From Cephalotus follicularis (lineage: Eukaryota; Streptophyta; Magnoliopsida; Oxalidales; Cephalotaceae), in contig BDDD01000568.1 in the NCBI GenBank assembly GCA_001972305.1, forward strand, positions 146,433 to 210,432: DNA of 64,000 nucleotides. Reading direction: 5' to 3'. Of the stretch, positions 876 to 63,379 are shown one piece after another. Every line of letters begins with the position of its first letter. Position 1 is the first letter of the stretch. The translations under genes were made by a program, and so were the position numbers. The notes under the pieces were generated by a model. The model was not told where the DNA came from, searched no databases, and saw only the letters and a list, made by a program, of their open reading frames with translations.

Positions 876-1260
876 CAGCCGACTGAAACAGAGATTCAGT
901 CGACTGCCAAAGCATACAGTCGACTGCCAAAGTATGACCAACCGACTGGACCTTCAAACAAACTCAGAATCTGCACATGCACCCCAGCCAGCCGACTGCC
1001 ACAGGGCTACAGTCGACTGCCAGGGCAAGACAGTCGACTGCCACAGGACTCCAGCCGACTGCCATGAAATGCACAATTCAACCAGTAGCTTTGGAAATCG
1101 ACTTTCAAGCCCAAACAGCCGACTGGAACAGAGCATCAGTCGACTGCCCAGGCATCCAGTCGACTGCCTAGTCTATCCAGCCAACTGCCTCCTCCCAACG
1201 GCTATAATTATAAATGCACAACATTTTACCAGCCGACTGCATGGAAAATCCAGACGACTG
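876..1260. repeat. 14-word array of CAGTCGACTG-type palindromes, 21-bp phased
   Basis: Words start at 876, 897, 917, 939, 989, 1010, 1031, 1052, 1116, 1137, 1157, 1178, 1230 and 1251. The consensus CAGTCGACTG is its own reverse complement; CAGCCGACTG is the commonest variant. Neighbouring words are 20-22 bp apart except for three gaps of 50, 64 and 52. The spacers of about 11 bp share little sequence. The array sits 40-430 bp upstream of the TATA box of the LTR. Frames across it give Ser-Arg-Leu-Pro-like heptads that are a by-product of the 21-bp period, not a protein. Confidence 0.9.
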
Positions 1261-1303
1261 GATTTGGTCTGAATGCACAAAAATAGATCCGTTGGAGGAT
1301 CTC

Positions 1304-1310
1304 TATAAAA
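1304..1310 (+). promoter_or_regulatory. TATA box of the SIRE-like LTR
   Basis: TATAAAA lies within the LTR, 44 bp downstream of the last palindromic word. The position, about 600 bp into an LTR of 1.1 kb, fits the U3/R boundary. No transcription start can be read directly. Confidence 0.55.
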
Positions 1311-2152
1311 GGAAGAATGTGGTATTTTTACAAAAGAGACACATCAAGAGATACCAAGCAAATGCACATTACTTCCAAGTAACACTAGAGCTATTTTCAA
1401 TCTTTCAATTCAATATCCAAAGCTTGTAACTAAGCTAGCATTTTCATATCCAACCTATTGAGAAGTTATTGTAAACACAACACACTTCACATTTATCATT
1501 CTTTGTATTTGCGGGAAGTGAACCCTTGTAAGTTGTTTATTGATTTACACCCGGAAATTAAATCAAGTGTAAAGGTGGTTTGTTTGATTTGCACCCGTAA
1601 GCCAAAAATCAAAGGTTGCTAGTGGTGGCTAGTGGAATCTCAAGGTGTTCTTGAGAAAGTGGATGTAGGCACGGTTTTGCCGAACCACTATAAATTTTGT
1701 TTGCACTCTCTATCCCTTAACTCCTTATTTATTTGTTATTGTGTGATTGTTTATGTTCATTGCTTAAATTGTATTTTCCGCATACATAGTTAGTAGTTAA
1801 AGGTTGCCATACAAATACTTTCAGTTCTAAAATCCGAACTACATATATAATCCTTAACATAAATTCCAAGATCAAGATATGTACATAACACTGGTCAACA
1901 TAGGATCATGAAACGACTATTCAATTGACAGAATTAAACTTAAGTGATAAAATCAACTTAAACTCCAAGTTCCATACATAACCATAACATTACTAAAAGA
2001 AACCAAATCCTAAAATGCCCTCAAGCCAAAGGTGTTTCTCTCATCACACTTGCCCCATATGCTCCTGATAACTTGTCGCATGGTAAACAAAAACGCAGCT
2101 GAGCAAACCTCAGTACGGATATAGAATCATAAAACAGTTTACGAACAAAAGA

Positions 2153-2240
2153 GAACAGTTACGAATCAAAATAGAACAATTGTGAATCAAAACAGAACAG
2201 TTATGAATCAAAATAGTTTACGAAACAAAACAGTTTACGG
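2153..2240. repeat. 21-bp tandem repeat in the minus-strand LTR
   Basis: Units built on GAACAGTTACGAATC start at 2153, 2174 and 2195, exactly 21 bp apart. They are followed by shorter AGTTTACG units at 2215 and 2232. The word is not palindromic and is unrelated to GTCGAC, but the period equals that of the palindrome arrays elsewhere in the window. Confidence 0.7.
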
Positions 2241-2877
2241 AACAAAACAAAACAGTTTAAACATTCTTTATAAATTACCTCAGAAATTTTCGTATCAAAC
2301 CAATTCCATACCTTTAAAAACATAAAGCATACCTTTCAAAACATAAGTTTCATACTTAGCGTCATAACATATCATATATCGGAACACATATAAGCAATAG
2401 ATTCGCGATGCCCACATGCCAGGTAGAAATGACGTGTACGGCACCACACAATCAATTCTCACAACATATCATATCTCATATAACTAGGATCGATCCATAC
2501 ACCTCTGTCACAAATCCACCACAAGGATATCATAAACATAGAGAGACACCGTAGACTAATCACACCACCACGGAAAGTGTCATGCCTCCATGCCAAAGGA
2601 CATGCCTATGGTACGCCCCATAGGTGGGTACAAAAGCTTAGTACTTCACCATTTCAAAACATTGATTTTTCATAATCAATTTAAAACACATATAGAAAGA
2701 TTTTCTGAATAATCGTTATCGACCGATAAATTTCACATTGCACATAATTTCATAATCGGAAATCAACTCATTTATTTTCACGATAAAAGTGAGGATTGCA
2801 TAACATTTCATAAACGTATCATAGCTGAATATATAAAGTCAGAAATATTGACTTTCATAAAAATATCAAAACAGACT

Positions 2878-4455
2878 TGATGGGTGGCCGAATCAAAATT
2901 ACCCTAATCTAACATTTTAGCAAGTGGAAGTAGGGATCATTCCCACGAAGAGCTGAAAGGAGATGCTACAAAAATAAACTTAGGATGTAACTAAACAAAA
3001 ATAACGAATAGGAAATTAATTTAATCTACGCTAACAATGCAAATAAAATGAATTGAAAAGAGAATTGATTTGGATTAAATTAATTTAATGAGAAATTGAA
3101 CAATTCAAATTAAATATCCAACGTAAACTAACAAAATAAATAAATAAGAAAAATAATATAAAACAGAAATCCCGTAGATGTGAGAATCCCCGCATGTATA
3201 TATATATTCAAATTCATGGCACAAGTTTCAGTTTAGCAAATAAAATTACCGAATTAACCTAGGTACGACTATCCTGTCAAACCTTGATACTCTCAAAAGG
3301 TTGATTGGTTAAAGGGTGTCTTTGGTTAACACAACAAACTAGTGATTTAGCCTAGGTACAACCTATCCTGTCACACCTTGATACTCTTAAAAGGTTGATT
3401 TGTTAAAGGCTATCATTGGTTCAACCAGATAAAAAAAGTATAGCATGATATAAATGAAATAAAGCTACTAACAATAAATCATCAAAACAGATTTTATATA
3501 TTAAAAATTCTTCTTATCAATGTTGTCACTACACTAACAAGAAAAAGTGTCTCATAAACATGCAATTAAACTTGAAACCAAAACTGAAATATATATATAT
3601 ATATAACATAGGTTCATCTACATCTAGGGATTAAAAATACTTAGCCGGACATGACGATGAAAACAGATATCTTGAATGAATTCTTCATCCTTCACCTGCC
3701 GTGCGCCTCTCTTCTTCTTTCTACTTTCGCGTCTCATGATATATATATATATGTCACTGCTTAACCTAACTCAAAAATTAAAACGTGGCGTTGGCGTGTT
3801 ATTGCTGCATGACTTCATGGGCTGAAGACGAATGGATGTATGGGTTGGGCGTTTTGGCGGCGTGATGCGCATGGACTGAAGACTCGTGGGCTCATGGCTT
3901 CATGATATACTGGGCTGAAGATTTTATGAATGCATGCATGCAGGCATTTTGGTGTGTGTTGATTGGTTGGAAGATGTATGCGTGCATGGAATGGGCTGAT
4001 GGATGACGTATGGGCTTTGCATTGAGGCTTGATGTTGCTGATGGCTTTTGCTAGGCGCATGGTGTTGGCGTGAGAATTTGATGACACGTGGCGGATGTTG
4101 GCTTGATGTGTTCCAATATTTGTTTTCTTGCAATATCTTTTCGTCGGAGCTTCAGAATGAACCGGTCCAAGAACTAAAAGTACTCCAAATAATTTTATGA
4201 ACAAAATGAGCCCAATATTCAATATCTTTCGAGCTTTAAATTTAGACTTCTCTCGCTTAAGTGGGTGCACTCTTTAACTGATCGTTGACTTCAAACCACT
4301 TTAACTCGAAAAGTAACGTTTTAGCATCATTTTCTTTTATTCCGTAATAATCAAATAATACTTGAAAATCAAATAAACACCACCACAGTAGTCTATTCCA
4401 AGCATAAAAATATAATAATTAACTCATTAAAAAGAACACATTTTTATGCTTATCA
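2878..4455 (-). repeat. 3' LTR of the Athila-type element
   Basis: About 1.58 kb, beginning TGATAAGCAT on the minus strand at 4455 and ending with CA at 2878. It matches 9314-10819 over its length. It contains a roughly 93-bp tandem duplication (units from 3258 and 3351, each with CCTAGGTAC), also present in the other LTR at about 9705-9875. The two LTRs also share short AT-dinucleotide runs of different length. Confidence 0.88.
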
Positions 4456-14024: not shown

Positions 14025-15215
14025 GTAATTGTAACGCCCGAGATTTCCATGTCATATTATTTCACAAGTAATTGTACTCTTAAATTGTGGAATTAATAAA
14101 AAGATGGATTTCCCGAATTTGATGATGTTTTCCAATCCTTCTTATTTTGAAGCTTTAGTGTTAAATGTCCAAGAAATGTATAAGGGGCTAAAACGATGCT
14201 GTCTTGAAGGAAAGACGTCGACTCCTTTAAGAAACACGTCGACGCCTTTTTGACAGAACGTTTCACGTAACTGCATGCACATGCACCTCGATCGGGACAA
14301 AGACATCGACGTCTTTGGAAAAGACGTCGACGTCTTAAGTTCGAATGTCTTGCATGTTACCTCCTGACAAAAAACGTGCAAGAGGGGTTTAAGTGGAGGT
14401 CTTCTGCAGAAGCCTTGGTGCATGGTAGAGACGTGTTGTGCATGCTATTTGTTTTCAGACATGCATGTATCTGAGTGGAGGGAGAGGTGTGACACATGGG
14501 AGTGCATGCAGACCATGGTGCCACCCTCAATACCTGCTCCTGCAAAACAAACGGGTCAGATTTGGGAAAGAGGGAATGGACTGTTAGTGCATGCAATGGA
14601 TTTGAGAGGGATGAGAGAGGACTTACCTGCATAAAACGCCTCCTTATTCATCCCTGGGTGGCTACACGCCGTGGCTGTCATGAAACAGAAAGTAAAGAGA
14701 GAAAACACTTCCTTCCTTGACCACCATTGTTGAGCTTGCTGGAAAGCTTGAAAGCTTGGAAGCTTGGAGCTTGGAGCCACTAGTGCAACATCGGGACGAT
14801 CCTTTGGGAGTTGCTGTGACCGGTTGGATACACAAAGGGGTGGACTTTCCTGTTCCTAACGTGGGACAAGAGGTAGGGGAAAGCCATGACTGTATCTCAA
14901 GTTATTATAAACCTGTTGTGGTTATGCTTTTAAGTTGTACTGTTATTTTGATTCTGTTCTTAAAGGAATTTAAACTTGTACTGTATTTCACGCTCCGTTT
15001 TTATGGGCGATTAGCTTAACGACTTGTACTGAAGTAGCGTGTGGTATGGGACACACGTTACGGGTTACAGCTTATGGATTTGTGCTTCCGCAACTGTTTG
15101 TACCTTGTTAAAGGTTTAAGTTTTAAATTTCACGGTTTTGCATGAGCTGTATTGTATGTTAATTGTCTTTACCGCTTTAATGCTGTGTTTATCATAAACG
15201 GGGTGTGACAGTAAT
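14025..15215 (+). mobile_element. Solo LTR of a Tekay-type family, with target duplication
   Basis: The LTR runs 14030-15210 (1181 bp), from TGTAACGCCCGAGA to GGGGTGTGACA, and is flanked by a perfect GTAAT duplication (14025-14029 and 15211-15215). It is homologous to the longer solo LTR at 36403-38965 and to the LTR at the right end of the window (62096-64000), but is shorter than the former in its middle. No internal region is present, which is the product of LTR-LTR recombination. Its palindromic words are GACGTCGACGTC-like (14217-14331). Confidence 0.9.
14214..14334. repeat. Two pairs of GACGTCGACGTC-type words
   Basis: Word cores (GTCGAC or ATCGAC) start at 14217, 14238, 14305 and 14326. 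Both pairs are exactly 21 bp apart. The last word reads GACGTCGACGTC, a perfect 12-bp palindrome. The cluster lies 185-300 bp from the LTR start, the same relative place as in other LTRs here. Confidence 0.9.
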
Positions 15216-18729: not shown

Positions 18730-20875
18730 TGTTATATAGGGTGACCCGACAAGCCATTTGATGGGCTTTTGTATCAAACCGATATGTATATATATAAATA
18801 GTCTTATTCCATATATATGACATGTGCTATTTTGTTTATAATTTATATGGCAATATCACTTGTGTTTTATCATATAATCGAAGTAGTCTATATAAACCTA
18901 CTTACGCTTGTGATGCCCTGACATAAGGTTGGATGCCAAGCATGGAGGCAATGAGATTGGCTACCTTATTCCTTATGATGAATTAGTTCCAAGTCATACG
19001 TTCACTTTGTGGGCATTAGGTAACCGATAGACTTGCGCGTATGTTGCCTGTTTTGGGAATTGGAGGATGGAGTCTCTCACTACCATTTGTGTTGCGACAC
19101 TAGGGCAAATACTGGGTGCGCGCTGAGAGCATGTACACTGAACTGGACCCACGTATGCGACATTATTTTGATAGTCGCTATTCTCGTGTCAGTAGTGACT
19201 CCTACTTGTTACGGTTGTGTATAAGTACTAGTCACTTAGCGAGTTCTCGAACTTGTTTTATCCTTAGACCTGAGCGACTACTCTATATTGTATGGAGACG
19301 GTTATGCTTTGATCTCCACCTTACCCAGTTCTTACGCGGGGCTGGAAATCGGGTGGTCTTTGGGTATAATTCAATCTATACGAATGTAAGCGAGTGCGCA
19401 ATATGGGATTGTCACACCTGAGCAAAGGTGATTGGCCCTTTTATGGTCTGATTGTACTTTGGACTTATGAAATACTTGGCCAAGGTTGAGGTGGAATGAA
19501 AATTAGATTTTTGGAGAGTCTACCAAAGGTCCTAGCAATTAATCAGATATTTTAGCCACTGAGGTAATATTAGGGTTGACACGTATCCTTACCCTATACC
19601 TCAGTGGGGCCAACTATGATGAGGGATTATAGTGCACGCGAACCGACGACTCAAAAATTCTCTCTTTACGACAGTGTGTAATAAATTATGAGAAAATTAA
19701 TTAGATTAATATTTCATATTGATAATATCAGATATTAGTCCGGAAGCATTTTAAATTGGTTTGGGACCATTTGGAATGGCTTAACCGAACCCTAGGGGTA
19801 TTTCGGTAATTTATGAACACCACCGATTTTAACCAAGATTTTCAAGGGTCCCTGTCCGATAATTATTTCTTCCTAAATATGTTAGACATATTTAGTCTTG
19901 GTGACAATTATAAAATAAAATATTAGTTAGTGAATTTTGCGAATTGTGTCATCATTAAATGGTGGCATATTCGCTTAATCTTATTTAAGTAATATTTGAA
20001 GGGATATGTGACATTACTAAAATGAGTAGGACTCATTTAAGTTACTGTTGGCTGTTTTCTTGGAGAAGTGAACATGTGTCATACAAAGGATGAGTTGGAC
20101 TCATTTTTGACACGTGTAAAGGCCAGCATGTCTAAACTTTGACTCCTTTGGAGAAGGCGTTGACGCTTAGCCCGTTTTAGCATCGACGCCTTTTGCAGAA
20201 AGCGTCGACACTTAGTGCGTTAATGTGGGCACACTACGTGGTCACGCGACATGGGCACACTCTTCTCCCACTCCCAGCTGATTTTCCTTCTCAGAGAGAA
20301 AAGAGGGAGCACGTTGGTGAGTGGGAAGTGGGTTTCCTTAGAAGAAGCATCATGGTGCATGATGTGTGAGTGTGTGCTAGTGCGTGTTACATCGTGCAAT
20401 GGGTTGGAATAAAACAGAGAACAAAAAATTTCTCTGGGTACGTCCAACACTTGAGAACACACTGCGATCCCTTCACTGATTGGTTCACCAAGCTTGGAGC
20501 TAACCTAGGGTGGATTGTGATTGATAATCTTTGTCAATCTCATTGTTCCCTTTGTGAGCATAGAGAGAAAACACTGTGAGGTGCAAAAACAGAGCATCTG
20601 TCATTTTGGAGTTTGGTGTTTGGAGCAACATTGTTTCATCTTATAGAAGGAACTAAAAGCTTGAAGGGAGTCGTCTCAAGCAAGTAGCGGCAAAGATGAA
20701 GGAGCCATCACCATTCGGTATGACCTCCTTGTTCTTCTCTGTGTCAGCATGTTCATCACATGAGCATGCACGTGTGATGTTCAATTCAAGTATGTAATTG
20801 ATGTGGTGTTCCTTGTGACTTGTATCCCCTGTTTTGAACTTGCTTTAGTGGTGTTAAGGGTTGCTTCCATTGGCA
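18730..20875 (+). repeat. LTR-like repeat, first plus-strand copy
   Basis: It begins TGTTATATAGGGTGACC and runs about 2.15 kb to a palindromic junction near 20876. A second plus-strand copy begins TGTTAGATATAGGGTGACC at 21545 and resumes after a Tekay insertion to about 33965, with the same total length. A minus-strand copy at 33966-34892 plus 47046-47325 is attached to copia pol, so the family is probably copia. The copies differ by an estimated 25-35%, so they are old. No primer site follows this copy. A GTTGAC/GTCGAC cluster lies at 20137-20209. Confidence 0.6.
20137..20209. repeat. GTTGAC/GTCGAC words at about 22-bp spacing
   Basis: Cores start at 20159 (GTTGAC), 20182 (ATCGAC) and 20204 (GTCGAC), with a weaker TTTGAC at 20137. 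The gaps are 22, 23 and 22 bp. Flanks are GCG..GC, the same variant as in the Tekay element at 34893, although this LTR belongs to an unrelated family. Confidence 0.75.
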
Positions 20876-21544: not shown

Positions 21545-21840
21545 TGTTAGATATAGGGTGACCCTACAAGCCACTAGTTCACTAATTGTAATTGTAATTC
21601 ACCGCATATATATAATCTTGAATTCATTTAATGTTACCTTGTGAAATTTCAATTTAGTTATGGAATGCTGTGTAATAACCGCAAATTCAATTCGTGTACA
21701 CTGTAATATTGATTAATAAAATGTGCACTCATTTGAATTTAATGTCCAATTATTATAATTTATGATTGGTAATTGCTTGGGATGAATGGAGATGCAATTT
21801 AGTGAAGATCGGACTTAAGAAACCCTAAAACAGCCTTTGA

Positions 21841-21967
21841 CAACCGACTGCCATAGGGGTCAGTCTACTTCCTGGTTTGTGAAGGGGCAGCCGACTGTCA
21901 CAGGGGAGCAGTCGACTGCCTGATGCGTGTTGTGGACAGTCGACTGTCCAATGCATCCAGTCGACTG
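21841..21967. repeat. CAGTCGACTG word cluster 1, Tekay 5' LTR
   Basis: Words start at 21841, 21861, 21888, 21909, 21937 and 21958, giving gaps of 20, 27, 21, 28 and 21. The counterpart cluster in the 3' LTR is at 29360-29486. It lies 170-300 bp from the LTR start. Confidence 0.88.
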
Positions 21968-23002
21968 GATCGGTACAGAACAGGTGTCTATGCATGCCTG
22001 CTAGACTGAATCATTGGGGCATTGCATGAAGGGGCAAGTGTCATGCGTGTCAGGGACTGCCAGAGCATGCAAGATAGAATGCTTGCATGTTCTCTGCAAC
22101 CTGCAAAACAAAATAGAAAAGAGAGAAATGTGGGAAAGAGATAGAAAAGAGGAGAGAAAAGAAATGCATGTGATGAGACAAGGCTGAGTTATGGCTCTAG
22201 CGAATTCAAGATTCCTGAGCCTTATATCAACTGTTAGCACTGTGTGTGAGTGTTAGAAAACACTGGAGATAGAGGGGAATTGCTGGAGAATTAAAGGAGC
22301 TTGCATGTTGATGGTTTAGAGCTCAAGGGGGGAACATGGAAGCTTGGACTTCTCCTGGTAAGTTCCAAATATGAAATCTCTGCTATGTGTTGATAAGGTA
22401 ACTAGGAGGATGTTTGATCTTCTATTAACATGGTTAAGGTTAACAAACTTCTAGATTGAATGGAAATGGAATGTAGTAATGGTTCAAGTAAAGTGAAGAT
22501 TATAATCTTTGAATTGGGTTATAGTTGTTGTTTATGTTTGAATATATGCTTCTGATTTCCTTGAGTATGCATATACCTTCTGTCCACATGTTCAAGATCA
22601 AAGAACCTGGTATAGAAAGATAATTGACAAGGTTCATAGATATGTGGTAAAAAGGGGATAGTTATGAAGCTTAATGATCTAGAGAGTAACTACTGTTAGA
22701 TCATAGTTGTCATAAGGTTATTGAACTCCCTGTGCTGATGCATGTATCCATAAACCTGCATGCATAGATTAATATTGCTGGATTCGGAGGATTGTTTGGA
22801 AAGGCTTTGGAAGCTTTAAAGAGAAAGATCAAGCCCAATTGATCTTGGGATAGTGATTGAGGTAGGGGTGATGATATGTTATGGAAGATATAGTATGCAT
22901 ATTGTGTATGTCTATTTTCTGCATGATTACATGTGTTGAAATTGATTGGAAATTGATCTTGAATTGCATGAACTGCTACTGCCTGCATTTTCTGGGCAGA
23001 AG

Positions 23003-23115
23003 CAGTCGACTGCTCTTCATGGCAGTCGACTACTCAACCTATCCAGTCGAATGCCAAGGCAAAGCAGTCGACTACTCAACCAAGGCAGTCAGCTATTCTT
23101 GAAGGCAACCGACTG
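23003..23115. repeat. CAGTCGACTG word cluster 2, Tekay 5' LTR
   Basis: Six words start at 23003, 23023, 23044, 23065, 23086 and 23106, with gaps of 20, 21, 21, 21 and 20. The spacers (CTCTTCATGG, CTCAACCTATC, CCAAGGCAAAG) are only loosely related. The same six positions are kept in the 3' LTR at 30522-30634. Confidence 0.92.
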
Positions 23116-24462
23116 TTCTGGGAAAATTACTGATATAAGTCCTGTTAAGGCCTTAATTTAGAATGTAATTAACTTGACCTTCATATGGACGATTAGAACA
23201 GTCTATACTGGCCGCATATTCTTTTACATTTCAAAATTAAACAATGTACGCACTTCTTGCGAAAGTTGCATATGAATGACTATGAAATGCTATTATCTTG
23301 TGATTCCTTGAATTACTACTGCCTTTGATTATTGTTACTGTATATGCTACCTCATATTAGTAAATACCAATGACTATTATAAGCCTACTGTTTTCATGTT
23401 CCAAAGGTGGAACAACTATGTGCTATATGCACAACACATGGTATTATCCTATCATTTTAAAAATGAACACTTCTCACCTAAAAAAAAAAAGAACTACTGA
23501 ATTTCCTCCTATATGAGAGGTACCTACTGTTTTGTTTCCTCACCTGGAAACCACTGCTGAATTGATGTCGTTTTCCTCACATGAGACGTACGATAAATGA
23601 ATTGTTATATGTTTCTAAAGAAAACAACCATTATATTACATATTGTTGATATATGTAATATTGTTATTGAAATGCTTGAATTGTTCGTCTATGTTTATTG
23701 CCGTAGTCGAGTGATGGAGGATATCACGGACTACGGAAGTGATCCTGGATGCCAGGAGTTGGCCAGAGTATCAGCCAAACTGTCTGCATTGGAGAGCTTA
23801 CTGTTAAACTACCCGCCAACGCCGATAGTAAATGTTACCAGTTCTATCATCCTCGGTGCATAGGGTGATAGTTAGGTGGTGCACAGTTGGTGCTAGGAGT
23901 TAGCGATATGTGACACCCAAACCATTGTATGAATTGATTGTACCCTTGTGCGGTATGCTTGCATTATATTGTCCATGGCCACTTGGCATGGTTGCTTATT
24001 CATTTGAATACTAAATGTTACTTTTATATAAACTGTCATACATATTGCATCCATATATTCCTTAGCAGGCATTATCTTCCTACTTAGCCAAGTGAGGACA
24101 ACGGCTAACCCCTACAATTACATATTGAGCGAGGACGTTCGTAGCTTGCTGCTGAAGCTTTGGAGAGCTTCTGTTCATCTTTTAAGGTTGTTATCTATGT
24201 TGTTGTATTGAATTGTAATGAACAGATCATACCTCGTTATGTTGTACTTTCCTTATGTTTAAGGATAATTTTTTTTTGACTTATACCCGCACGTAGTATG
24301 GGATGCGTGCGGACGGCTTGTGTTTATATTCCAGCTTATTGACTACTTCCGCATATTATTTAATGAACTGTTGAATGAAATGCTGGAATGTTATGTTTAA
24401 TTCTGAAATCACCATATATGCTTGTCTTAATGAATGGAACCGAATAACGGGGTGTGACAGCA

Positions 24463-24562: not shown

Positions 24563-25640
24563 ATGGATCCACGAAGAGGAACAAAGGGAAGGCGTAGAGC
24601 CGACGAAGGTGTCGATGCACTGCCAGCACATGGACATTACCCGGCAATGAATGAAGGGGTGAAAATTCCTCCAGTTCATGATGAGAGGAGTAACTTTAAC
24701 CACATGGCTGATCTTTTCCGTCTGCAGATGCCAGCAAATGCTGCGAACATGGAACAGATCCGACAAATGTATGAGGCTAACCCGGCATATCAGCAAGCAC
24801 CGGAACCTTGTCATGTTGGTAGTTTTGGCAGAGATTTGGAGCGGTTCATGTGGCAGAATCCTCCGACTTTCAGCGGTGAGCTGAATGCTACTGTGGCCGA
24901 GCGATGGATAAGAGACTTGGAGAAAATATTTGCTATTCTAGAATGTACTGATGATCAGAAGCTTAATTTTGCTGTGTACCGCTTATGGGGCAAGGTAACT
25001 TACTGGTGGGAACGGATTGAAGCAAAATGGGAAGCCCGTGGACTTGATAGGACTTGGGAAAGATTTTAGTCTGAGTTCTTTGCAACATATGTTCCACAGA
25101 TAGAGCGTGACCGATGGGAGACAGAGTTGATGGAGTTACGCCAAGGAGACATGACGGTAGCTCAATACCAGACCAGATTTGTGGAGCTAGCAAGACACAT
25201 GCCTTATCTTGTGGAGGGTGAGTCACGGATGATCCGGAGGTTCCTAAAAGGCCTTCGACCAGACATCAGATCTAAATTGTTGATGTTGCGGCTGACCTCT
25301 TTTGTTGAAGTTGCTGAGAGGGCGATGATTCGTGAAGAAGATGCTAATGAGAGATGGATAGAAAGGACTCGTACTAATCAATCGAGGGCCGTGCAGTCAC
25401 AGGGGCAGGGAAGCAATAATCTTGCTAAGTCAACCAGATCTGACAACAGAGGGCAAGGAGGATCTCAACGCACACGATCAAAGACTCTGGGCCGGAACAG
25501 TCAGCAGAATGCAAGTGGATGTGCTTTTTGCGGTCGTCAGAACCATGATTAGACCGATTGCTGGAAGAAGATGGGAAAGTGCTTGAGGTGTGGCTCATAA
25601 GATCACATGCTGAGTAATTGTCAAAAGATGAGGGATCATG
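24563..25640 (+). pseudogene. Tekay gag region
   Basis: The plus strand encodes a chromovirus gag. The N-terminal part contains MRR/RRADEG-like charged sequence, then the conserved retrotransposon gag block (FSGELNATVAERWIRDLEKIF ... VTYWWERI) and LRQGDMTVAQYQTRFVELARHMPYL. A CX2CX4H-type zinc knuckle begins at CAFCGRQNH near 25520. It is expected to form the particle shell of the element. It is a broken fossil. Confidence 0.88.
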
Positions 25641-34900: not shown

Positions 34901-35048
34901 CCGCGACTTCATTTTTATGTATGTTGTATAATTCATGAATAAAATTATACATTGATCTGAGATTATTTGCTAATTGTCCTTTTAATTAGCTTATTGCTAT
35001 GGAAGGATAAGCTAAGTATTGGAAATTATAAGGAATAAGGGCGCTTGC

Positions 35049-35252
35049 GCGTCAATGCCATGCATTGACGTCGACGCCTAGTAACACTGAAACTCCCTTA
35101 AGGCTTCTTGCCTTAAGGCGTTGACGCCATGCGAGGACGTTAACGTCCATTGCTGCGGTATGGAAGGGAGTTAGGCGTTAACGCGACTAAGTGAGAGCTT
35201 GTTAACGCCAAAACATGGAGTCAACACATCGACGCCCAGCATTGACGTTGAT
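35049..35252. repeat. GCGTCGACGC / GCGTTAACGC word cluster 1
   Basis: Cores such as GTCAAT (35051), GTCGAC (35070), GTTGAC (35120), GTTAAC (35139, 35177, 35201), GTCAAC (35220) and GTTGAT (35247) are embedded in GCG..GC flanks. GGACGTTAACGTCC at 35135-35148 is a perfect 14-bp palindrome. Spacing is less regular than elsewhere, with gaps near 19, 24, 38 and 50. Confidence 0.8.
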
Positions 35253-35780
35253 GCCTAAAGTGTCGGCAGAATACGTTAAAAGGAGAACAGAAGACATGTG
35301 AGGGACAAAAGTACGAGATTTTGCACTTCCCCATGCTCTGCACTGACGAAAATTAAGGAGAGAAGTTATTGATGGAGGTCTTGTCACCTGCCATGAAGAA
35401 GGAGAGGGAAGAGTGACTCCATTAAAGCTCCTCTCCTCTTCTCCGAACCTCACACCAGTGAAAGAGAGAGTGAGTGAGAGAGTTGCTGTTCTGCCACTTT
35501 AAGCCGGAAAAGAAGCTTGAGGACCAAATCTTGGAACCTGGGCGTGGCGTATTAAATCAGATCTTGAAGCTTGGAGAAGTTGAGGATCGGAATAAAGCTT
35601 AAAGAAAAGGGCTTTCGATTCCTAACTTGGAATCAGAGGTAGGTAGTAGGGTTGTTTATGAAAATATGGCATGTATATTGTGTTATGGTGATTGTGAGTG
35701 CTTGCATGTTGATTCCAAGTGTTAAATTCGTGCTCGATTGAATTGATTGTTAACTGATTGTCCTTCTGCGTTTGATTCAC

Positions 35781-36173
35781 GCCGACACCTAAATGAATGA
35801 CGTTAACGCCTTAACTGGAATAGGCGGTGTTTTGTACAGATAGGTTGGTTTTTGTCAACGCCTATGTGGTTGACGTTAACGCCATAGCTGTAATTAGTTG
35901 ATGTTTCGTACGGTTAGGATAATTTACATTGACGCCTAAGTACACGTTGATGCGTAAAACCTACTAGATTTTCCAGGACATCAACGCTTAAAAGGACGAC
36001 GTTGACACCTAAGGTTCCTACCTTACACGTTGACGCCAATATCGAATGTTGACGCGTAAGGTCCTTCCTTAATGCGTTAACGCCCAATTTGGGTATTGGC
36101 GCATGAATGACGTTAACGCCTAAGATACACGTTGATGCATAAGCTAACGTTGACGCCTAAGTTACACGTCGAC
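35781..36173. repeat. GCGTTAACGC / GTTGACGCC word cluster 2
   Basis: Cores at 35781, 35802, 35854, 35875, 35928, 35946, 35980, 36001, 36029, 36048, 36076, 36112, 36131, 36149 and 36168. The commonest gaps are 18-21, then 28 and 52-53. Most words are followed by CCTAAG or CTTAA. The 3' LTR has the corresponding cluster at about 45514-45893. Confidence 0.8.
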
Positions 36174-36397
36174 ACCAATAGTGACTGTTTTACATTATGA
36201 ACATATGTTTGCTTGCTTTTATGTGGTTTGATTCCTAGAACCACCAATGATTGTATTGATTGAGTGATGGCATATTATTGAAAGTGATATATTGTTAGAG
36301 ATATTACATATATATCAAGTGATTTCAAGTGATTTATTTATTGATGCTATATGCATAATCAAAGGTTTTCTATTACTATTTTCAAAGAAAACCAAGT

Positions 36398-44612: not shown

Positions 44613-47040
44613 TGTAATGACCGTAATTTAATTTCGATGTATGTTGTATAATTCATGAATAAAGTTATACATTGATCTGAGATTATTTTCTAATTGTCCT
44701 TTTAATTAGCTTATTGTTATGGAAGGATAAGCTAAGTGTTGGAAATTACAAGGAATCAGGGTGCTTGGGCGTCAACGCCATGCATTGACGTCGACGCCAC
44801 GTAACACTGAAACGCACTTAAGGCTTCATGCCTTAAGGCATTAACAACATGCGAGGACATTAACGTCCATTGTTGGTGTATGGAAGGGAGTTAGGTGTTA
44901 ACACAACTAAGTGAGAGCTTGTTAACACCAAAAAATGGAGTCAATGCGTCGATGCCCAGCATTGACGTTGACGCCTAAAGTGTCGGCAGAATACGTTAAA
45001 GGAAGGACAGAAGACACGTGAGGGACAAAAGTGCAGGATTTTGCACTTCCCCATGTCTGCACTGACAAAAATGAAGGAGAGAAGTGATTGATGGAGGTCT
45101 TTTCACCTGCCATGAGGAAGGAGAGGGAAGAGTGACTCCATTAAAGCTCCTCTCCTCTTCTCCAAAGCCTCACACCAGTGAAAGAGAGAGTGAGTGAGAG
45201 TGAGAGAGTTGTTGTTCCTCCACTTTAAGTCGGAAAAGAATCTTGAGGACCAGATCTTGGAACCTGGACGTGGAGTGTTGTATTGGATCTTGAAGCTTGG
45301 AGAAGCTGAGGATCGGACAAAAGCTTAAAGAAGTGGACTTTCGATTCCTAACTTGGAATCAGACGTAGGTAGTAGGGTTTATGACATGTTTATGACAATA
45401 TGGCATGTATATTGTGTTATGGTGATTGTGAGTGCTTGCATGTTGATTCCAAGTGTTAAATCCATGCTTGATTGAAATGATTGTTAACTGATTGTCCTTC
45501 TAAGTTAGATTCACGTCGACGTCTAAATGAATGACGTTAACGCCTTAACCGGAATAGTCGGTGTTTTGTATGGATAGGTTGATTTTTGTTAACGCCTAAG
45601 TGGTTGACAATAACGCCATAGCTGGAATTAGTTGTTGTTTCGTACGGTTAGGATGATTTACGTCGACGCCTAAGTACACGTTGATGCGTAAAACCTACCG
45701 GCTTTTCCAGGACATCAACGCCTAAAAGGAAGACGTTGACGCCTAAGGTTTCTACCTTACACGTCAACGCCAATATCGAACGTTGACGCCTAAGGTCCCT
45801 CCTTAACGTGTTAACGCCCAATTTGGATATTGACTCATGAATGACGTTAATGTCTAAGATACACATTGACGCCTATGATACACGTCGATGCCAATAGTGA
45901 CTGTTTTACATTCTGAACATATGTTTGCTTCTTTTTATGTGGTTTGATTCCTAGAACCACCAATGATTGTATTGATTGATTGATTGCATATTATTGAAAG
46001 TGATATATTGTTATAGATATAACATATCTATCAAGTGATTTATTTATTGGTGCTATATGCATAATCAAAGGTTTTCTATTACTGTTTTAACAGAAAACTA
46101 AGTGTATTGTTTTGTTTCCTTAGAAAGGAAACCTAGTGAAGTGTTTTACTGTTTCCTCCAAGTGAGGCACAGTCATTGAAGTGTTTTATCGTTTCCTCAA
46201 AAGAGATTTTAAGTGAAAGTGTTTACCGTTTTCTCAAAGAAAACTAGTGTTATTTTACATATTATATATATGTAATTTCAGTCATCAATTGTGATTGAAG
46301 TGTTATGATGGTTTAGTGGTTTGAGTATGCCACTGACTACGGAGGTGAGCGGATATGCCAGGAGTTAGCTCTAGCTTATTCACCAAATTTATCTGCATTG
46401 CAGACAGTGAGTGTTATATTGCCCACCAAGTGCCGGCAATAAGTGTTTACCTAGTCTATCACATCGGAGTGCATGGTGGTAGTCAGGTGGTGTATCGGTT
46501 GAGCTAGGAGGTAGCACTAGATGATACCCACCCAGTGTAGTGATTGATTATACCCTTGAGAGGTATTCTTGAAAGTGATTGATTGTAGCCATTTGGCATG
46601 ATTGCTTATATATATTCATTATATATATACTTAGTGTTTAATGATATAATTGCCATGCATGATTACATTCATACGTTCATTTTCATGCAAATTTTCCTGC
46701 TTAGCCAAGTGAGGACAACGGCTAACACCTACAATTACATATTGAAGTGAGGGATTGCACGTGCTGCTGAAACTACACTTGGAGGCCTCTTATTTTAAGG
46801 TTGTTAAGCGATTAAATTGTAATAAAGTCATACTCTGTTATGTTATATTTACATTTTCAATATGTAATGTATAACTTGTATTGTGATTGGGAGCATGTAG
46901 TATGGGCTGCATACGGATATTATATATAATCCAGTATTATTGAATGATTCCGCAAAGTTTTTAAATAATTGAATTTTAATGAATGCTGGATTAACTGTTA
47001 GCCATGTGTAATAAATGGTAATTGGGAACGGGGTGTGACA
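44613..47040 (+). repeat. 3' LTR of the second Tekay element
   Basis: 2428 bp, uninterrupted partner of 34893-39896. Word clusters lie at about 44770-44975 and 45514-45893. Comparison with the 5' LTR shows that many differences fall within the words (for example GCGTTAACGC against GTGTTAACAC near 44896), as expected from loss of methylated CpG. Confidence 0.92.
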
Positions 47041-49481: not shown

Positions 49482-51880
49482 CCATGTGTAAGCCCCAGAT
49501 TTTTTTATATGTATGGTATTGTATGCATTTTGGTTGTATTTATATGGTATTGTATAGTATTGTATTGATGGATGGCATGGATTGTATATGATATATACTA
49601 TTTTTCACTTTTATGTCTGTTTTTGGGTAATGGGGGTTCAGTAGAACCTAAATGTGGATTATGAGATTTTCGCCTAAAGGAGCCTATATCTATATATAGG
49701 CGGTTCGGCTCTTTCTATTCTCATTTTCATTTCTCATTCTAATTCTAGAGAGAGAGTGAGTTAGAGGGAGAAAGTGGGTGGAATCAAGCAAGGAGGGAGT
49801 CTTTGGGATGGTGGCAAAGTGTAGAACTTGAAGGGAGGAACAGAATGAAAATTCAAACAGCGTATTCTTCGTTCTCATTCAATTGAGGTAGGTTCTACAT
49901 ATGCTTTGATTTTCTTATTATGATGGATTTGAATGGATTTCATGGCTATGGATGATTGCACATATGCTAGATGCATGGATTATGGTATTTATTATGACTT
50001 TAAATGGATTAAAATGGTAATCAGAGGGAGAATTGAGAGTTTTAGATTCATAGGCCTAATCTCTTCTCTCTCTAGATTCATGGGTTACAGGCACAGATCT
50101 GAAGGGATGAAGTTGTTTTTAACTTACCATCGACCTTAAAGGCATGTAACTGCCATTAGATCGAATTTAAACTGATTTAAATGCTTTTAAAGTGGATTTT
50201 ACAGACTGTTTGATGATCTGCCTGGTGCTATCAAACCATTGACGCTTTGGCTAAGGCGTTGGAGCTTTGATCGCACAAACCGTCGACTCTTCCTTGTAAA
50301 ATGTCGATGATTAAGGACCAAAACCTCGACGCATTTGTTAAAGAGTCGACACTTATTGTGTTTCCCAATGGTTGACGCATAATGCACGTGTCAACGCTTA
50401 GGCGCTAACTGTTGATGCTTTGGATGAAGCAGTTGACGCTTAGCGCCCTGTTTCAGCCAAATCACATTGTTTTCAACCCCAAGTGGTTTTCTCTACAAAT
50501 GGATTCCATAGGAAGCCTCCGTAAGACCTTGTAGCCCATGTTAATCCTCTTTTAACACATTTGATTGCTAAATCAATCTTCAAAAGTGAATCTTTAAAGA
50601 AAGTTTCAACAAAAGGGTTTTATACAAATGGTTTTCAATAAATGGTTAGGATAGCTCAACTGGGACATCTGGACGTAGATATCCTAGTTGGACTTCCTCT
50701 CCATTGTTTTTCAACTCCGATAGGGACCAAGAAAATGGTTATGGGAAAATGGTTTTAAAATGGTTTTGACGGATGGATCCTATGTGATCCTTTATGGTTA
50801 GGTCCCGATCCTTGAAAATGGAAATATGGTTATAGGCTGCAGGTATGGTACGACTATGATCGATGGATTATTATGGTTGAGACCTTAAGGGATAACCCAT
50901 TCATAATCTTCATTTCAGTCATGAAGAAATGTGGATGTATGCCACATATTATAGATAAGGTATTCCTCCCTTTTTGGGTGACCTACGGGCATCACCACAT
51001 TGTGGAGTGACATGGTATAGTATGGATATGGCATAGAAATGGTATAGATTGCACAGATCTCTATTATGGGTCAGTACCTTTGGGACTAGTATGGGCTAGT
51101 ACCTTCGAGACTACTATGGGCTAGTACCTTCGGGGCTAGCATTATGGTATGGATTATGTGGCCGGTGTTATCCTATGCTCCACATGACTATGGCACGGAG
51201 GGTGTATCGACGGTGGGGGTACTATCTCGGGCCGGAGCGGCAGAGAAGTACTTGACCCTATGGATTGATTGTCCCCATGGATGATTATGGATTGTTTTAT
51301 GGAGTGTCTGCAAGCTTATGGCCTTTGATGTGTTTAGGACTTGCCAAGTATACGATCGCTTAGGGACGGTTGGTATACTGACGCGGTCCACAATTGGCAT
51401 TCATGCATATAATATGTCATGCATATATACCTGTTATATCTGATGCATTTCATTTCATATAGTATAGCCTACACAACCATAGGTTACTGACCCATTCTCG
51501 TAATGGGTCAGGTTCAGGTGCAGGTACCGGTGATGCATCGATTTGAGGAAGATCGAGACGGATAAGACTTCCCTGGCAGATCTTGGACAGTGGCCTAGAT
51601 TATTGTTATCTACCTTGTGTATATGAATTTGGATGTATAAGAGACATATTGTAATTTCAGCTATTGACCTGCTGGCTTGTGGCAGCGCTTAAGATATATG
51701 TTTGATGTTATGGATATGGATGGGCTTATCCTTGTATATTGAATATTTTTCTTCCACATGCATGTTTTATATAAAAGTTTTAATTTGTAGTGTATTTGGA
51801 GTATGATGCCACGTATGTGATGGATCGTATGGACGGACCTGCCAAGTGTCGAACTTTGGAGTTCGGGGCGTGACACCTTG
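49482..51880 (+). mobile_element. Solo LTR inserted in the copia body
   Basis: The LTR runs 49487-51875 (2389 bp), from TGTAAGCCCC to GGGGCGTGACA, Tekay-like ends. The flanks CCATG (49482-49486) and CCTTG (51876-51880) are a target duplication with one difference. It splits the copia gag/pol boundary region. A TATA-rich string lies at 49691-49698 (CTATATATAGG). It has ten phased words at 50238-50437 and short repeated strings GGGCTAGTACCTTCG at about 51088 and 51119. No internal region remains. Confidence 0.85.
50238..50437. repeat. Ten-word GTCGAC/GTTGAC array
   Basis: Cores start at 50238, 50258, 50282, 50303, 50325, 50345, 50371, 50390, 50411 and 50432. The nine gaps are 20, 24, 21, 22, 20, 26, 19, 21 and 21. 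Words vary (ATTGAC, GTCGAC, GTCGAT, CTCGAC, GTTGAC, GTCAAC, GTTGAT) but positions hold to about 21 bp. Confidence 0.85.
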
Positions 51881-56315: not shown

Positions 56316-56476
56316 GTCGACTGCATATTTTAAAGCGTCGACAGTTTGCTTTGTTATATGGTGAAATGCCATAAAGCGTCGACAGTCCTATTCAAGGCGT
56401 CGATGGTTTGGCTTCGTTTTGTGGGCTCAATAATTTTGAGTTAAAGCGTCGACGCTTTTAACACGTTTTGTCATCG
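56316..56476. repeat. GCGTCGAC word cluster
   Basis: Cores at 56316, 56337, 56378, 56399 and 56448, with gaps of 21, 41, 21 and 49. Words are preceded by AAAGC or AAGGC. Weaker relatives (TCATCGCTT near 56471, CGACGCTTT near 56578) follow. Confidence 0.82.
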
Positions 56477-57939: not shown

Positions 57940-58249
57940 CAGTTGGCTGTACCTCATTGGCAATCGGCTGTTAGCCTTCAAACAGTCGGCTGCCCAACAC
58001 TGGCAGTTGGCTGACCACACTAATCAGTCGGTTGTCTCCCTCGACAATCGGCTGCTCACACTCGACAGTCGGCTGTCCCTCAGGACAATCGATTGTCCAC
58101 ACTCAACAGTCGGCTGCTGACCTAGAGCAGTCGACTACACAACCTCTGCAGGCACTTCCCAGAGACACACATGGGCAGTCGACTGGCTCCTCAAGCACAG
58201 TTGGCTGGAACCATTAAGCAGTCGGCTGCCCAACATGGGCAGTCGGCTG
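57940..58249. repeat. Fourteen-word CAGTCGGCTG array, the most regular in the window
   Basis: Words start at 57940, 57961, 57983, 58004, 58025, 58045, 58066, 58086, 58107, 58128, 58176, 58198, 58219 and 58240. Gaps are 21, 22, 21, 21, 20, 21, 20, 21, 21, 48, 22, 21 and 21. The prevailing word is CAGTCGGCTG, with CAGTTGGCTG, CAATCGGCTG and perfect CAGTCGACT- variants. Spacers of about 11 bp are unlike each other. Confidence 0.93.
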
Positions 58250-58787
58250 GACTCAGCAGAAAAGGTAGAAAACAGCAGCCAAAACAAGCCACAACACACA
58301 CCAAACCCATCCCAACACAGGACATTAATGCAACAACACATTCCAGGCTCAATACACAACACATACATGCATTTTATATCATGGAAAACATGAAAACCGA
58401 ACTTAACATCACTAAAATGACTTTCACCCTACCTTAGAACTCCAAGTTAGGAGCTGAAATCCACCTCTTTAAGTCCAAAACAAAGGCTTTTGCACTCCCC
58501 AACTCGTCCAGCAACTCCCACTGGTCCGTTCTTGCCACTGTCCAAGCCTCCAAGTCCACGGTTCAACACAAAGCTCCTTGGATCCACAACACACACACAC
58601 TTTCACTCCCTTTTCTTCACTCTTTCACACTCTCTTTGAACTCTCTGTGAAAAGGGATGAAGATGGAGGAAGAAGCTTGTGTTTTTATGGACAAACCCGG
58701 CCCCTCTCCCTGTCTTCTGCCCATACAAAGCCAACCCCCACTTTTGTCACACCAAGCCTGACAGCACGTGTGCTGTCTGGCGCCTGG

Positions 58788-58918
58788 CAGTCGACTGCCT
58801 CGACTTGGCAGTCGGCTGTTTCTGCCGACACACACAAAGCCTGCTGTTTCCCCACAGTAGATGGCTGGTTCCTTCACGAGGGGAACCCAGTCGGCTGCCT
58901 CCCTGTGGCAGTCGGCTG
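58788..58918. repeat. Second CAGTCGACTG/CAGTCGGCTG cluster of the same LTR
   Basis: Words start at 58788, 58809, 58888 and 58909, two pairs each exactly 21 bp apart. They lie 140-280 bp from the LTR start on the minus strand, the same relative position as cluster 1 in the plus-strand Tekay LTRs. Confidence 0.9.
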
Positions 58919-59060
58919 CCCCCTGCTTCAAAACACACCAACACACTTTTCTTGCAACTTTCAAAACACAAAAGAGGAAAAACACGGTTCCCATTAACAC
59001 AAGGTGCAAAATTACATTGGAAAAGCAACATTACACTTTAACAAAAACCCGAGCGTTAAA

Positions 59061-60689: not shown

Positions 60690-60975
60690 GACGTCGACTT
60701 CTTTTGAAAGACGTCGATGTCTTCTTGAAAAAATCGCGATTTGCTGAGATGCGATTGAAAGACGTCGACTCCTAAGGTGAAAGACGTCGATCCCTTCTGT
60801 CCAAAAGTTACACGTCGATTTTCCTCAAAGACGTCGATCCTTATGTTGAAAGACGTCGATCCTTTGTTCATAGCTCTTTGTATTGCCCAGAAAAGACGTC
60901 GACTTCTAACAAAATACGTCGACGTGTTTGTGAAAACCCAGAAAAGACATCGATGTGAATGAAAGGCGTCGATGC
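60690..60975. repeat. GACGTCGAC/GACGTCGAT word array in the Athila LTR
   Basis: Cores at 60693, 60713, 60764, 60786, 60814, 60833, 60855, 60898, 60918, 60949 and 60968. Gaps are 20, 51, 22, 28, 19, 22, 43, 20, 31 and 19. Words are preceded by GAAA or AAA, and many read AAGACGTCGA. The same word type occurs in the Tekay-type LTRs at 14030 and 62096, although Athila is a separate lineage. The Athila LTRs at 2878 and 9314 lack it. Confidence 0.88.
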
Positions 60976-61671: not shown

Positions 61672-61672
61672 T

Positions 61673-61708: not shown

Positions 61709-61769
61709 CCATTTTTTCTTTCTTTTTTTTCTTTCTTTTACCATCTTTTAAATTCGTGCATTGTCTTAG

Positions 61770-62095
61770 TCTTTTTAGCTTATCTATAGGATCCATGTAG
61801 CGAGCTTTCGACTAGTTGCTCTCAAACCAGTTGGCTTTAAGGAACTAGGGGTAGAACACCCCTAAGGTTTAATTACTCGAATCAAATAGGCTACAGACTA
61901 AGACAGAATTCAAAGAGGTAAATTTTTTTAGATTTATTTTATATAGGTCTTAGCATTTTAAGCTTTCTATAAGGTCCATGTAGCGAGCTTTCGACCAGTT
62001 GCTCTCAAACCAGTTGGTTTTAAGGAACTAAGTGTAGAACACCCCTAAAGTTTAATTACTCGAACCAAATAGGCTTCAGACTAAGACCGGTATCA
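61770..62095 (-). repeat. Direct duplication of an Athila 3' block
   Basis: Blocks containing GTAGCGAGCTTTCGACYAGT, CTCTCAAACCAGTTGG and GAACACCCCTAA occur at about 61785-61910 and 61965-62090. The element at 2878 has a single copy (about 5087-5250), so the duplication is specific to this fragment or its subfamily. Confidence 0.8.
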
Positions 62096-62364
62096 TGAAT
62101 GAATGCATAATGATGAGCCATGACATGTAATTTTTATAGTAAAAATACCTCCGTGTGTACATATAAAAATATACGCATGCTCACAGTACAAGTATAACTC
62201 AAAGTTATATCAATACAAGCAGTAAATATGTTCCCAAAAAGGAACCAGACAAACCAGTCGTCATGATCATCGCCACCTCCTGGCCCCAACGTCACGCACT
62301 CTTACTCCATCAAACGGTTTTGGAGCAAGTCCTCAATAAGTCGTTTAGCACGGTGACTAAACCA

Positions 62365-62525
62365 ACAGCAGGTTACTAGCACAGTGGCTAAGTAATCAAC
62401 AAGTTATTAGCACGGTGGCTAATAATCAACAGGTTATTAGCATGATGGCCAATAATCAACAGGTTATTAGCACGATGGCCAATAATCAACAGGTTATTAG
62501 CACGATGGCCAATAATCAACAAGCA
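62365..62525. repeat. 30-bp minisatellite
   Basis: Units reading GTTATTAGCACGATGGCCAA plus TAATCAACAG repeat about five times. The last three are almost identical, the first two diverged. A chance frame across it gives MANNQQVIST repeats. The array lies in an LTR and is not a gene. Confidence 0.9.
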
Positions 62526-63000
62526 CAAGCATTTCACAGTACAAGTCAAGCAATTACATATAATTACGTGATCAAATATATTTGTTTAAAATATACTTTT
62601 TCATTCACAAGTTGTAATAAGTCATAAACTTAAAACAATACATTTCTCTGTCTTTGGAAATACTTCCCCAATCATTTCGAAAATATATACATTCATAATT
62701 TATACATTTTCGCAAATTACATTTGGTTTCGTAATAAACCTTTAAAACAGTTCTCTGTCATTGGAAATACTTCCCCAATATATAAATTCAGGTGTTGACA
62801 AATATACATTTTCGTACCCAAATGATCATAATAATGATGCAAGCTTTTCAAAATGGTTTTAACACTTTTAGGAAAGCAACCATAATGCGAATCACAGTAG
62901 CAAAGCAATCATATGCTCAGAATGCACCTAGGTTCGTTTCTAGAGTCGTTTCGGGTCTAACAGGTCCCATTCAAGCAAAATCCTACTGTCCAGGAGGAAA

Positions 63001-63379
63001 GACGTCGATGTCATCCCTAATGGCGTCGATGTCTTTTAGCCTAAAGCATCAACCCTATATACAAATATTTCCAGGCGTATTCGAACCTAAGACGTCGATG
63101 TCTTTTACAAAGACGTCGATGTCTTTTTCATACCAGAGAGCATCAGTTCGCAAGTCTTGGTTTTAGAGAGTAAAATCCAACCTTTTAATCCCTCTTATAA
63201 ATGAATCTCACTCCATAAACGTATAAGGTATGCTACTGGTTAATAGTTACACAACCATAACATCAATCCGAAACCAAACAGGTGGTTCCAAGTGGCTAAA
63301 TAGCCATCTGAAATGACCATCACAGTTCTTACAATTTTCCAGAAAAGGAGTCGATGTCTTCTACAAAGACGTCGATGCC
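63001..63379. repeat. GACGTCGATGTC word pairs
   Basis: Cores at 63004 and 63025, 63094 and 63115, 63350 and 63371: three pairs, each exactly 21 bp apart. The prevailing word GACGTCGATGTC differs by one base from a 12-bp palindrome. The pairs are followed by TTTTA or TTTTC. Confidence 0.9.

Follow-up and report, generated by a model that had tools for sequence, protein, structure and literature searches.

Arrays of a GTCGAC-centred word at steps of about 21 bp in copia and gypsy long terminal repeats of Cephalotus follicularis: candidate binding platforms for a host protein

Why should one short, nearly self-complementary word recur at steps of about 21 bp in the long terminal repeats (LTRs) of retrotransposons that are otherwise unrelated? 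The question is raised by a stretch of 64,000 nucleotides of Cephalotus follicularis (contig BDDD01000568.1, here C568, positions 146433-210432 of a 1.577-Gb plant assembly), referred to below as the window, in which nested LTR retrotransposons are abundant and in which a first-pass annotation had noted clusters of GTCGAC and related words. From their spacing, placement and conservation, the arrays formed by this word are probably selected, promoter-linked binding platforms for a sequence-specific DNA-binding protein of the host.

The word, its spacing and its carriers

GTCGAC occurs 48 times in the window, where 5.2 occurrences are expected from dinucleotide composition; this 9-fold excess is the largest among the 64 palindromic hexamers. 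Exact copies stand 20 bp (five pairs) or 21 bp (seven pairs) apart and never 1-19 or 22 bp apart, and further pairs, counted up to 80 bp, occur at 41-42 and 62-63 bp. So that the window alone would not judge its own finding, 20 arbitrarily placed 10-kb stretches of the genome were taken as an unbiased sample. GTCGAC occurs 90 times in them, against 10-25 times after dinucleotide shuffling; it forms 19 pairs at 20-22 bp, against none in each of 20 shuffles. At least one array is present in 12 of the 20 stretches. When all hexamers are ranked by their excess at 20-22 bp in sample and window together, runs of N excluded, the top six are GTCGAC and words overlapping it. Pair counts over the whole genome, which cover distances of 20, 21 and 23-40 bp, give 105,145 pairs at 21 bp and 41,498 at 20 bp (1,224 and 391 in a reversed-pattern control); the 18 distances from 23 to 40 bp together hold 49,307 (about 2,700 per distance; control, 1,411), many of them at 28 bp among the matches listed. 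The clusters with steps near 21 bp described by the first-pass annotation are borne out in the window, in the arbitrary stretches and in the genome; the spacers do vary, and the arbitrary stretches show an excess at 20-22 bp over shuffled controls.

The dyad symmetry of the pooled words (131 unique) reaches 8 bp and stops there. Two flank classes can be distinguished, A GTCGAC T (class A) and C GTCGAC G (class C). Class A is a 10-bp word with the sense form [C/T]AG[T/C]CGACT[G/A], most commonly CAG[T/C]CGACTG, and its base counts at each position are similar in Sirevirus-type LTRs of the Ty1/copia superfamily (39 distinct words) and in Tekay-like LTRs of the Ty3/gypsy superfamily (122). Identical or near-identical stretches were counted once in the tallies of dyad symmetry, adjacent units, covariation, wider-set steps, mismatches, polarity, steps per superfamily and position randomisation.

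The evidence on spacing (the hexamer excess, the pairs at 6-39 bp, the 12 of 20 stretches with an array and the randomisation) comes from the arbitrary stretches and the window only. In this set class A pairs 6-39 bp apart fall at 20 (12), 21 (46), 22 (8), 27 (2) and 28 bp (9) and nowhere else, and 54 of 83 class A steps of up to 75 bp lie at 20-22 bp. Arrays of at least three words contain 53 steps at 20-22 bp, against a mean of 5.4 and a maximum of 14 in 2000 randomisations of position within arrays. A wider set was partly picked for holding a 21-bp pair (loci L001-L008 and L047-L066), and for that reason these loci are not counted as spacing evidence on their own; its nearest-neighbour steps of up to 75 bp fall at 20-22 bp in 153 of 220 cases and at 27-29 bp in 18, longer steps mostly equal sums of the two, and it holds no class A pairs at 1-18, 23-26 or 30-39 bp. 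Three overlapping loci (L003, L004, L007) and 18 LTR copies of the element C family described below (L029-L046) were excluded from the wider-set step, covariation and mismatch counts. By superfamily, 45 of 64 steps in Sirevirus-type arrays and 83 of 123 in Tekay-like arrays lie at 20-22 bp; at 27-29 bp the counts are 0 of 64 and 16 of 123.

A period test over distances of 30-150 bp gave a vector strength of 0.57 at 10.5 bp (best of seven periods), 0.49 at 7 bp and 0.26 at 21 bp. Pure helical phasing at 10.5 bp was considered as a full account of the lattice and rejected; it is broken by the second step of 28 bp, which is regular and corresponds to 2.67 turns, so that phasing alone is insufficient.

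In the window, the arrays of elements A, C and E lie in or near the following features:

375..697, plus strand: four copies of a polypurine tract (PPT; AA..GGGGGAG), found by pattern scan just before the 3' LTR of element A
700..1826, plus strand: 3' LTR of element A, Sirevirus-type Ty1/copia, its ends taken from alignment to a genomic copy
876..1260, plus strand: array A in the U3 region, 13 listed words (6 exact GTCGAC and 7 near-words), steps mostly 20-21 bp
1303..1312, plus strand: TATA box CTATAAAAGG, downstream of array A
21671..24459, plus strand: 5' LTR of element C (chromovirus, Tekay-like), one of an LTR pair, with a primer-binding site (PBS) TGGTATCAGAG at 24463
21841..21967, plus strand: word block 1 of this LTR, with a 28-bp step (21911 to 21939)
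23003..23115, plus strand: word block 2 of this LTR, with steps of 20-21 bp between its first four words
24563..28852, plus strand: coding pieces of element C, with RVP_2, RVT_1, RNase H, Integrase_H2C2 and SH3_Tf2-1
29190..31925, plus strand: 3' LTR of element C; word blocks 1 and 2 recur in it at 29360-29486 and 30522-30634
57983..58920, minus strand: class A clusters of element E, most words reading CAGTCGGCTG (CAGCCGACTG in sense); in minus-strand order they follow a chromovirus integrase/chromodomain piece

The LTR of element A is 89% identical over 1.1 kb to L001:1209-2304, a copy followed by a PBS-like TGGTATCAGAG and a copia gag open reading frame (ORF; PF14223, E 4.9e-32). The first word of array A stands about 180 bp into the LTR. 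Across 859-1189 the array also has a higher-order repeat of about 110-120 bp in which the order GCCGAC-GTCGAC-GTCGAC recurs (859-1063 against 972-1189, 68%). An apparent single Sirevirus-type element on contig C1 (loci L001, L002 and L005; about 4.4 kb to at least 10.2 kb) has two LTR copies that are 96% alike over their first 0.7 kb, with no match beyond. In order, it comprises an LTR, copia gag, an ORF weakly matching a leucine zipper, a word array, a PF20167 ORF, three PPTs and an LTR; pol was not seen in the pieces scanned. The internal array (L002:1499-1683) ends about 115 bp before the ATG, at 1800, of the PF20167 ORF, which is env-like and matches Transposase_32 with E 2.6e-6 (7.4e-10 in the next piece), both below the Pfam cut-off. 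The spacers of the internal and the LTR array are not detectably related (p 0.10). The word is thus placed upstream of the TATA box in a Sirevirus LTR and upstream of an env-like ORF in one element.

The gypsy element C has 2.8-kb LTRs, in which the two word blocks lie about 1.1 kb apart, and its internal region contains no GTCGAC. It encodes protease, reverse transcriptase (RT), RNase H, integrase and SH3_Tf2-1; the only chromodomain match, with an E value of 8.1e-5 that does not reach the Pfam cut-off, came from the related piece 59109-59531. Element C may be of the Tekay lineage, a name given in the first-pass annotation. The best protein matches of an RT piece at 25601-26701 include four of Cephalotus follicularis (83-92% identity over 53-68% of the query), and none of the other matches listed goes above 63%, consistent with this pitcher plant as the source.

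Conservation of words and spacers

The null explanation for such arrays is decayed minisatellites, i.e., functionless tandem units of 21 bp that have since mutated. Tandem Repeats Finder calls several of the arrays 20-21-bp tandem repeats, and both the higher-order repeat of array A (68%) and the likeness of adjacent spacers, which are more alike than random, are in keeping with it. Decay, however, would hit all positions. Between adjacent units identity is 26-35% at offsets 9-11 from the dyad, 69-70% at +-5, 83-86% at +-4 and 79-97% in the core; the core value is partly due to the selection of words, and +-4 and +-5 were outside that selection. Between families the same holds: element C and seven other gypsy LTR stretches agree at 458 of 506 word positions (about 90%), 425 of 665 spacer positions (64%) and 4137 of 6029 positions in the rest, in alignments that are partly anchored by the words and to that extent favour them. 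Nor would decay leave class A pairs absent at 1-18, 23-26 and 30-39 bp.

Among 20 LTR copies of element C (18 fetched and two in the window), identity outside CpG reaches 0.93 in words; it is 0.89 both in spacers and in the remaining positions. The site that usually mutates most readily in methylated repeats is CpG; it is well kept in the words and poorly elsewhere, being retained in 216 of 234 word cells and in 99 of 160 other cells of the same LTR piece (Fisher p 2e-13, for copies that are related and cells that are not independent). Length changes amount to 0.08 per 21-bp window inside arrays and 0.16 outside. Since spacers are far less conserved than words, an ordinary minisatellite fails as an explanation; it is largely refuted and very improbable. 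The first-pass proposal that word and spacing are kept independently of the rest of the LTR is upheld by the identities of words and spacers, the retention of CpG and the length changes.

Class A words with a single mismatch at lattice places (n=76) are GCCGAC (32), GTCGGC (23), GTTGAC or GTCAAC (6) and others (15); the products of CpG deamination are therefore rare (6/76) and GCCGAC/GTCGGC common (55/76). Off the lattice only ten single-mismatch words were found over 17 distances. In LTRs oriented by homology (26 stretches) GCCGAC lies 97 times in sense and six times in antisense; eight stretches (L048, L049, L050, L052, L053, L054, L060 and L061) were oriented mainly by aligning the arrays themselves, which is partly circular, and the other 18 give 61 sense and six antisense. 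This polarity is not predicted by a strictly symmetric dimer site. Helically phased sites for a dimeric protein had been proposed for the clusters: the idea of protein sites fits best, but phasing alone does not account for the 28-bp step and a symmetric dimer does not account for the polarity.

Self-complementarity could instead have been selected as such, in a cruciform, an RNA hairpin or a small-RNA precursor. In pooled words, positions 4 to 8 on the two sides of the dyad are complementary, and palindrome regions of maize Sireviruses are hotspots of small RNA according to passages of PMC5311732. Within class A, however, this complementarity vanishes when near-duplicates are taken out, which leaves 64 of 179 words: there is no excess at +-5 to +-8 (p 0.12-0.76). 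The arms do not covary, so that fixed letters are kept, not pairing. A 21-bp lattice in DNA is likewise not predicted by a hairpin. The same treatment leaves 26 of 43 class C words, and these covary weakly at +-6 and +-8 (p about 0.008 each), which is not explained away. The cruciform role suggested earlier is not supported in the main class, in which no compensatory covariation was found beyond the fixed letters, and structure as the selected feature has a slight probability at best.

Looser words, other clusters and LTRs without the word

Class C is spaced more loosely than class A, with 42 of 82 steps at 19-23 bp under one definition and 33 of 63 under a stricter one. Its clusters in the window, and the LTRs of element D, are as follows:

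14217..14331, no strand assigned: class C cluster, steps 21, 67 and 21 bp
20159..20209, no strand assigned: short class C cluster, steps 23 and 22 bp
34893..36402, plus strand: first part of the 5' LTR of element D, with GTCGAC, GTTAAC, GTTGAC and GTCAAC, many with C..G flanks, at irregular steps
37440..37645, no strand assigned: class C cluster in an insertion that splits the 5' LTR of element D
44613..47040, plus strand: 3' LTR of element D, part of whose GTYRAC words match 5' places
50282..50437, no strand assigned: class C cluster between copia gag (51770-52267, minus strand) and pol (48708-49427, minus strand) pieces
56316..56453, no strand assigned: class C cluster, steps 21, 41, 21 and 49 bp
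60693..60973, no strand assigned: class C cluster of GACGTCGACGTC and GACGTCGAT, steps 19-28 and 43-51 bp

The words of the element D LTRs are mostly GTTAAC, GTTGAC and GTCAAC. Neighbours stand 6-126 bp apart save for one gap of more than 500 bp in each LTR, and the steps include six of 19 bp, four of 28 and one of 21; the 21-bp phasing that had been ascribed to GTTAAC and GTTGAC words as well, which are mostly those of the D LTRs, is not confirmed. Decay of GTCGAC after insertion was considered as the source of GTTAAC in element D and rejected: five of eight GTTAAC in the 5' copy have GTTAAC at the 3' counterpart, so that at least these predate insertion. With their frequent steps of 19 and 28 bp, the D words (34893-36402 and 44613-46108) may represent a separate word type. 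The insertion in the 5' LTR (2.6 kb, 36402-38967) has class C words of its own and stretches that resemble 14902-15213 (71%); the D LTR directly before it resembles 14024-14191 (75%).

Outside the window, class C clusters at L017:3876-4044 and L018:8189-8335 lie upstream of gypsy pol regions whose RT and RNase H are about 32-45% alike to those of element C, possibly another gypsy lineage with the word. The LTR pieces of element B contain no GTCGAC; word arrays are therefore not a property of all LTRs. A pair of LTR-like direct repeats without GTCGAC (2886-4456 and 9329-10820) belongs to an element on the minus strand that has a gag match (PF03732) and in which no RT was seen in the pieces scanned. 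A tandem repeat with units of 30 and 60 bp at 62345-62523 is unrelated to the words.

The set of carriers is narrower than the first-pass annotation had it. Sirevirus-type copia and chromovirus LTRs stand as carriers; for an Athila element no such Pfam match was obtained among the 30 window pieces scanned, and a second copia family is not borne out, the cluster at 50282-50437 between gag and pol pieces being perhaps an insertion. Clusters had been attributed to at least ten LTRs; a location in an LTR is shown for elements A, C and D and not for all ten or more.

A candidate host protein and its relation to known systems

That letters and spacing are fixed, spacers free, CpG protected and the arrays placed on the promoter side points to protein binding. 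In the proposed mechanism a host protein would bind each 10-bp class A word in its sense form, neighbouring molecules would sit about two helical turns apart, with 28 bp as the alternative step, and the bound molecules would jointly promote transcription from the LTR, and in Sirevirus-type elements that of the env-like gene too, or would prevent silencing. Segmental duplication is the probable way in which arrays lengthen; they may also pass from one LTR family to another, and thereafter the words and their geometry alone would be retained. We infer each of three things here: protein binding, the host origin of the protein, and activation. A tentative extension of this scheme, somewhat short of an even chance, is that elements of both superfamilies, Ty1/copia and Ty3/gypsy, make use of a single host protein by way of arrays that converged or were exchanged, the 21/28-bp geometry being itself selected.

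As to the identity of the protein, an AP2/ERF factor of the CBF/DREB type is the leading candidate, although a doubtful one. It is suggested because the PLACE entries cited in passages of PMC4222965 and PMC5183650 give GTCGAC (CRTDREHVCBF2) as the core C-repeat/dehydration-responsive element (CRT/DRE) preferred by barley HvCBF2, and RYCGAC (CBFHV) as the site of barley CBF1/2. The sense cores GTCGAC, GCCGAC and ATCGAC, which fit RYCGAC, account for 32 of the 39 lattice words in the Sirevirus set and 99 of the 122 in the Tekay-like set, both of which were drawn with GTCGAC. Relative to CRT/DRE sites as those passages present them, the arrays have the core GTCGAC/GCCGAC in common and differ by ten conserved bases, near-palindromic flanks, rigid spacing and an A-for-G variant that is not strand-polar.

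A number of observations weigh against binding platforms of this kind and against the candidate. The RYCGAC fit is partly built in, and among cores other than GTCGAC 13 of the 20 Sirevirus and 23 of the 46 Tekay-like ones fit. A[T/C]CGAC is without strand bias (seven sense, seven antisense), whereas reading of RYCGAC on the sense strand predicts one; a simple RYCGAC reader does not account for this, and the candidacy of CBF/DREB is weakened by it. The CRT/DRE core explains neither the CA..TG flanks nor the near-palindromy, and a CBF/DREB protein does not explain class C or the GTTAAC words of the D family; class C words and those of the D family (GTTAAC/GTTGAC) form looser sets, some of whose members depart from RYCGAC. 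The helical face is lost at the 28-bp steps. Within the element C family words exceed spacers modestly (0.93 against 0.89), and adjacent spacers exceed random ones in gapped alignment (class A, 0.27 against -0.78, standard deviation 2.3, n=31; class C, 1.93 against 0.66, n=7), so that old duplication was likely part of the origin of the arrays. Lastly, spacers of different elements are in part alike. Ten array pairs were compared with words fixed and spacer letters shuffled, and five gave nominal p values of 0.007-0.043, three of them between copia array A and gypsy arrays (A-C1 0.017, A-C2 0.017, A-E 0.043); the lowest is that of C1-E2 (0.007). One gypsy LTR, L063 (C1:475000-476600), is a mosaic which departs from the other gypsy stretches: its spacers are 94% alike to those of element C in an LTR that is 71% alike elsewhere, with high identity (about 80-98%) at the LTR start, in both arrays and at about 1100-1250, and mostly 50-78% in the middle.

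These likenesses, together with the same word, polarity and step in copia and gypsy, speak for a single origin of the array, which recombination or template switching would then have carried from LTRs of one superfamily to those of the other. Such a history would replace convergence and is compatible with function. The other five comparisons, however, gave p 0.086-0.89, a strict correction for ten tests leaves at most 0.007, and the opposite-orientation pair C2 and E gives p 0.013, which indicates that the shuffle null may be lax. The step of 27-29 bp is also unevenly shared (16/123 Tekay-like, 0/64 Sirevirus). Array exchange is accordingly a serious possibility, though not one favoured outright. 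Between selection and a copying process, both of which had been offered at the outset, selection fits, and copying may have acted as well given the five of ten comparisons and the mosaic LTR.

A related alternative is that the arrays recruit an anti-silencing or silencing factor, as VANC acts on VANDAL transposons, and that this factor could be encoded by the elements. VANC targets, in the parts of PMC5735166 and PMC10398659 that describe them, are short motifs in tandem repeats of non-coding transposon DNA, at high density and with rapid turnover, as are the present words, and retention of CpG in the words would fit local hypomethylation. VANC targets differ between related elements and their binder is element-encoded, whereas here one word is common to unrelated elements; no spacing lattice is described in those parts. 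An element-encoded factor would have to act across superfamilies, because the copia and gypsy carriers share no Pfam family in the pieces scanned, and a host factor is simpler. A silencing-related factor seems unlikely, and a host protein bound to promoter-side platforms remains the preferred account.

A study in Genome Research in 2016 reportedly described complex palindromes with variable surroundings in the regulatory part of LTRs, which are said to be small-RNA hotspots in maize. To our knowledge no sharing of these palindromes with gypsy elements has been described.

Palindromic repeated motifs are established for Sirevirus LTRs, where many copies precede the TATA box in the upper half of the LTR, the first of them 200-400 bp into it, and others stand before env, with database matches to stress-related sites; multiple PPTs are mentioned as well (Bousios et al., 2010; motif section of PMC2829016). 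Array A is likewise palindromic, multicopy and placed in U3 upstream of the TATA box, the contig C1 copies stand before an env-like ORF, and the Vitis motif CGGTCGACCG of that section shares the GTCGAC core. Array A therefore belongs to the known palindromic Sirevirus LTR repeats, without the CGG-CCG signature that most of them carry and that the Tnd-1 motif also lacks there. The motif section reports the motif as Sirevirus-specific and describes no spacing rule or strand polarity; the present word and its lattice occur also in chromovirus LTRs, with a 21/28-bp lattice and a polar position. The first-pass remark that no published description was known is hence not correct for palindromic Sirevirus motifs (PMC2829016); it stands for the 21/28 rule, the polarity and the occurrence of the word in gypsy LTRs as well, none of which was found in the limited literature searched, from which absence from print is not established. 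A scan of viral contigs for CAGTCGACTG-N11-CAGTCGACTG gave no match, which says nothing on plants.

A feature described as private to Sireviruses would thus extend to gypsy elements. If one protein reads the arrays, the activity of unrelated retrotransposon families in one genome would be linked, and a large part of the retrotransposons of this plant genome would answer to one factor. The rigid lattice predicts cooperative binding, which is testable, and the more than 100,000 word pairs of the genome would constitute a natural mutagenesis series for the specificity of that factor.

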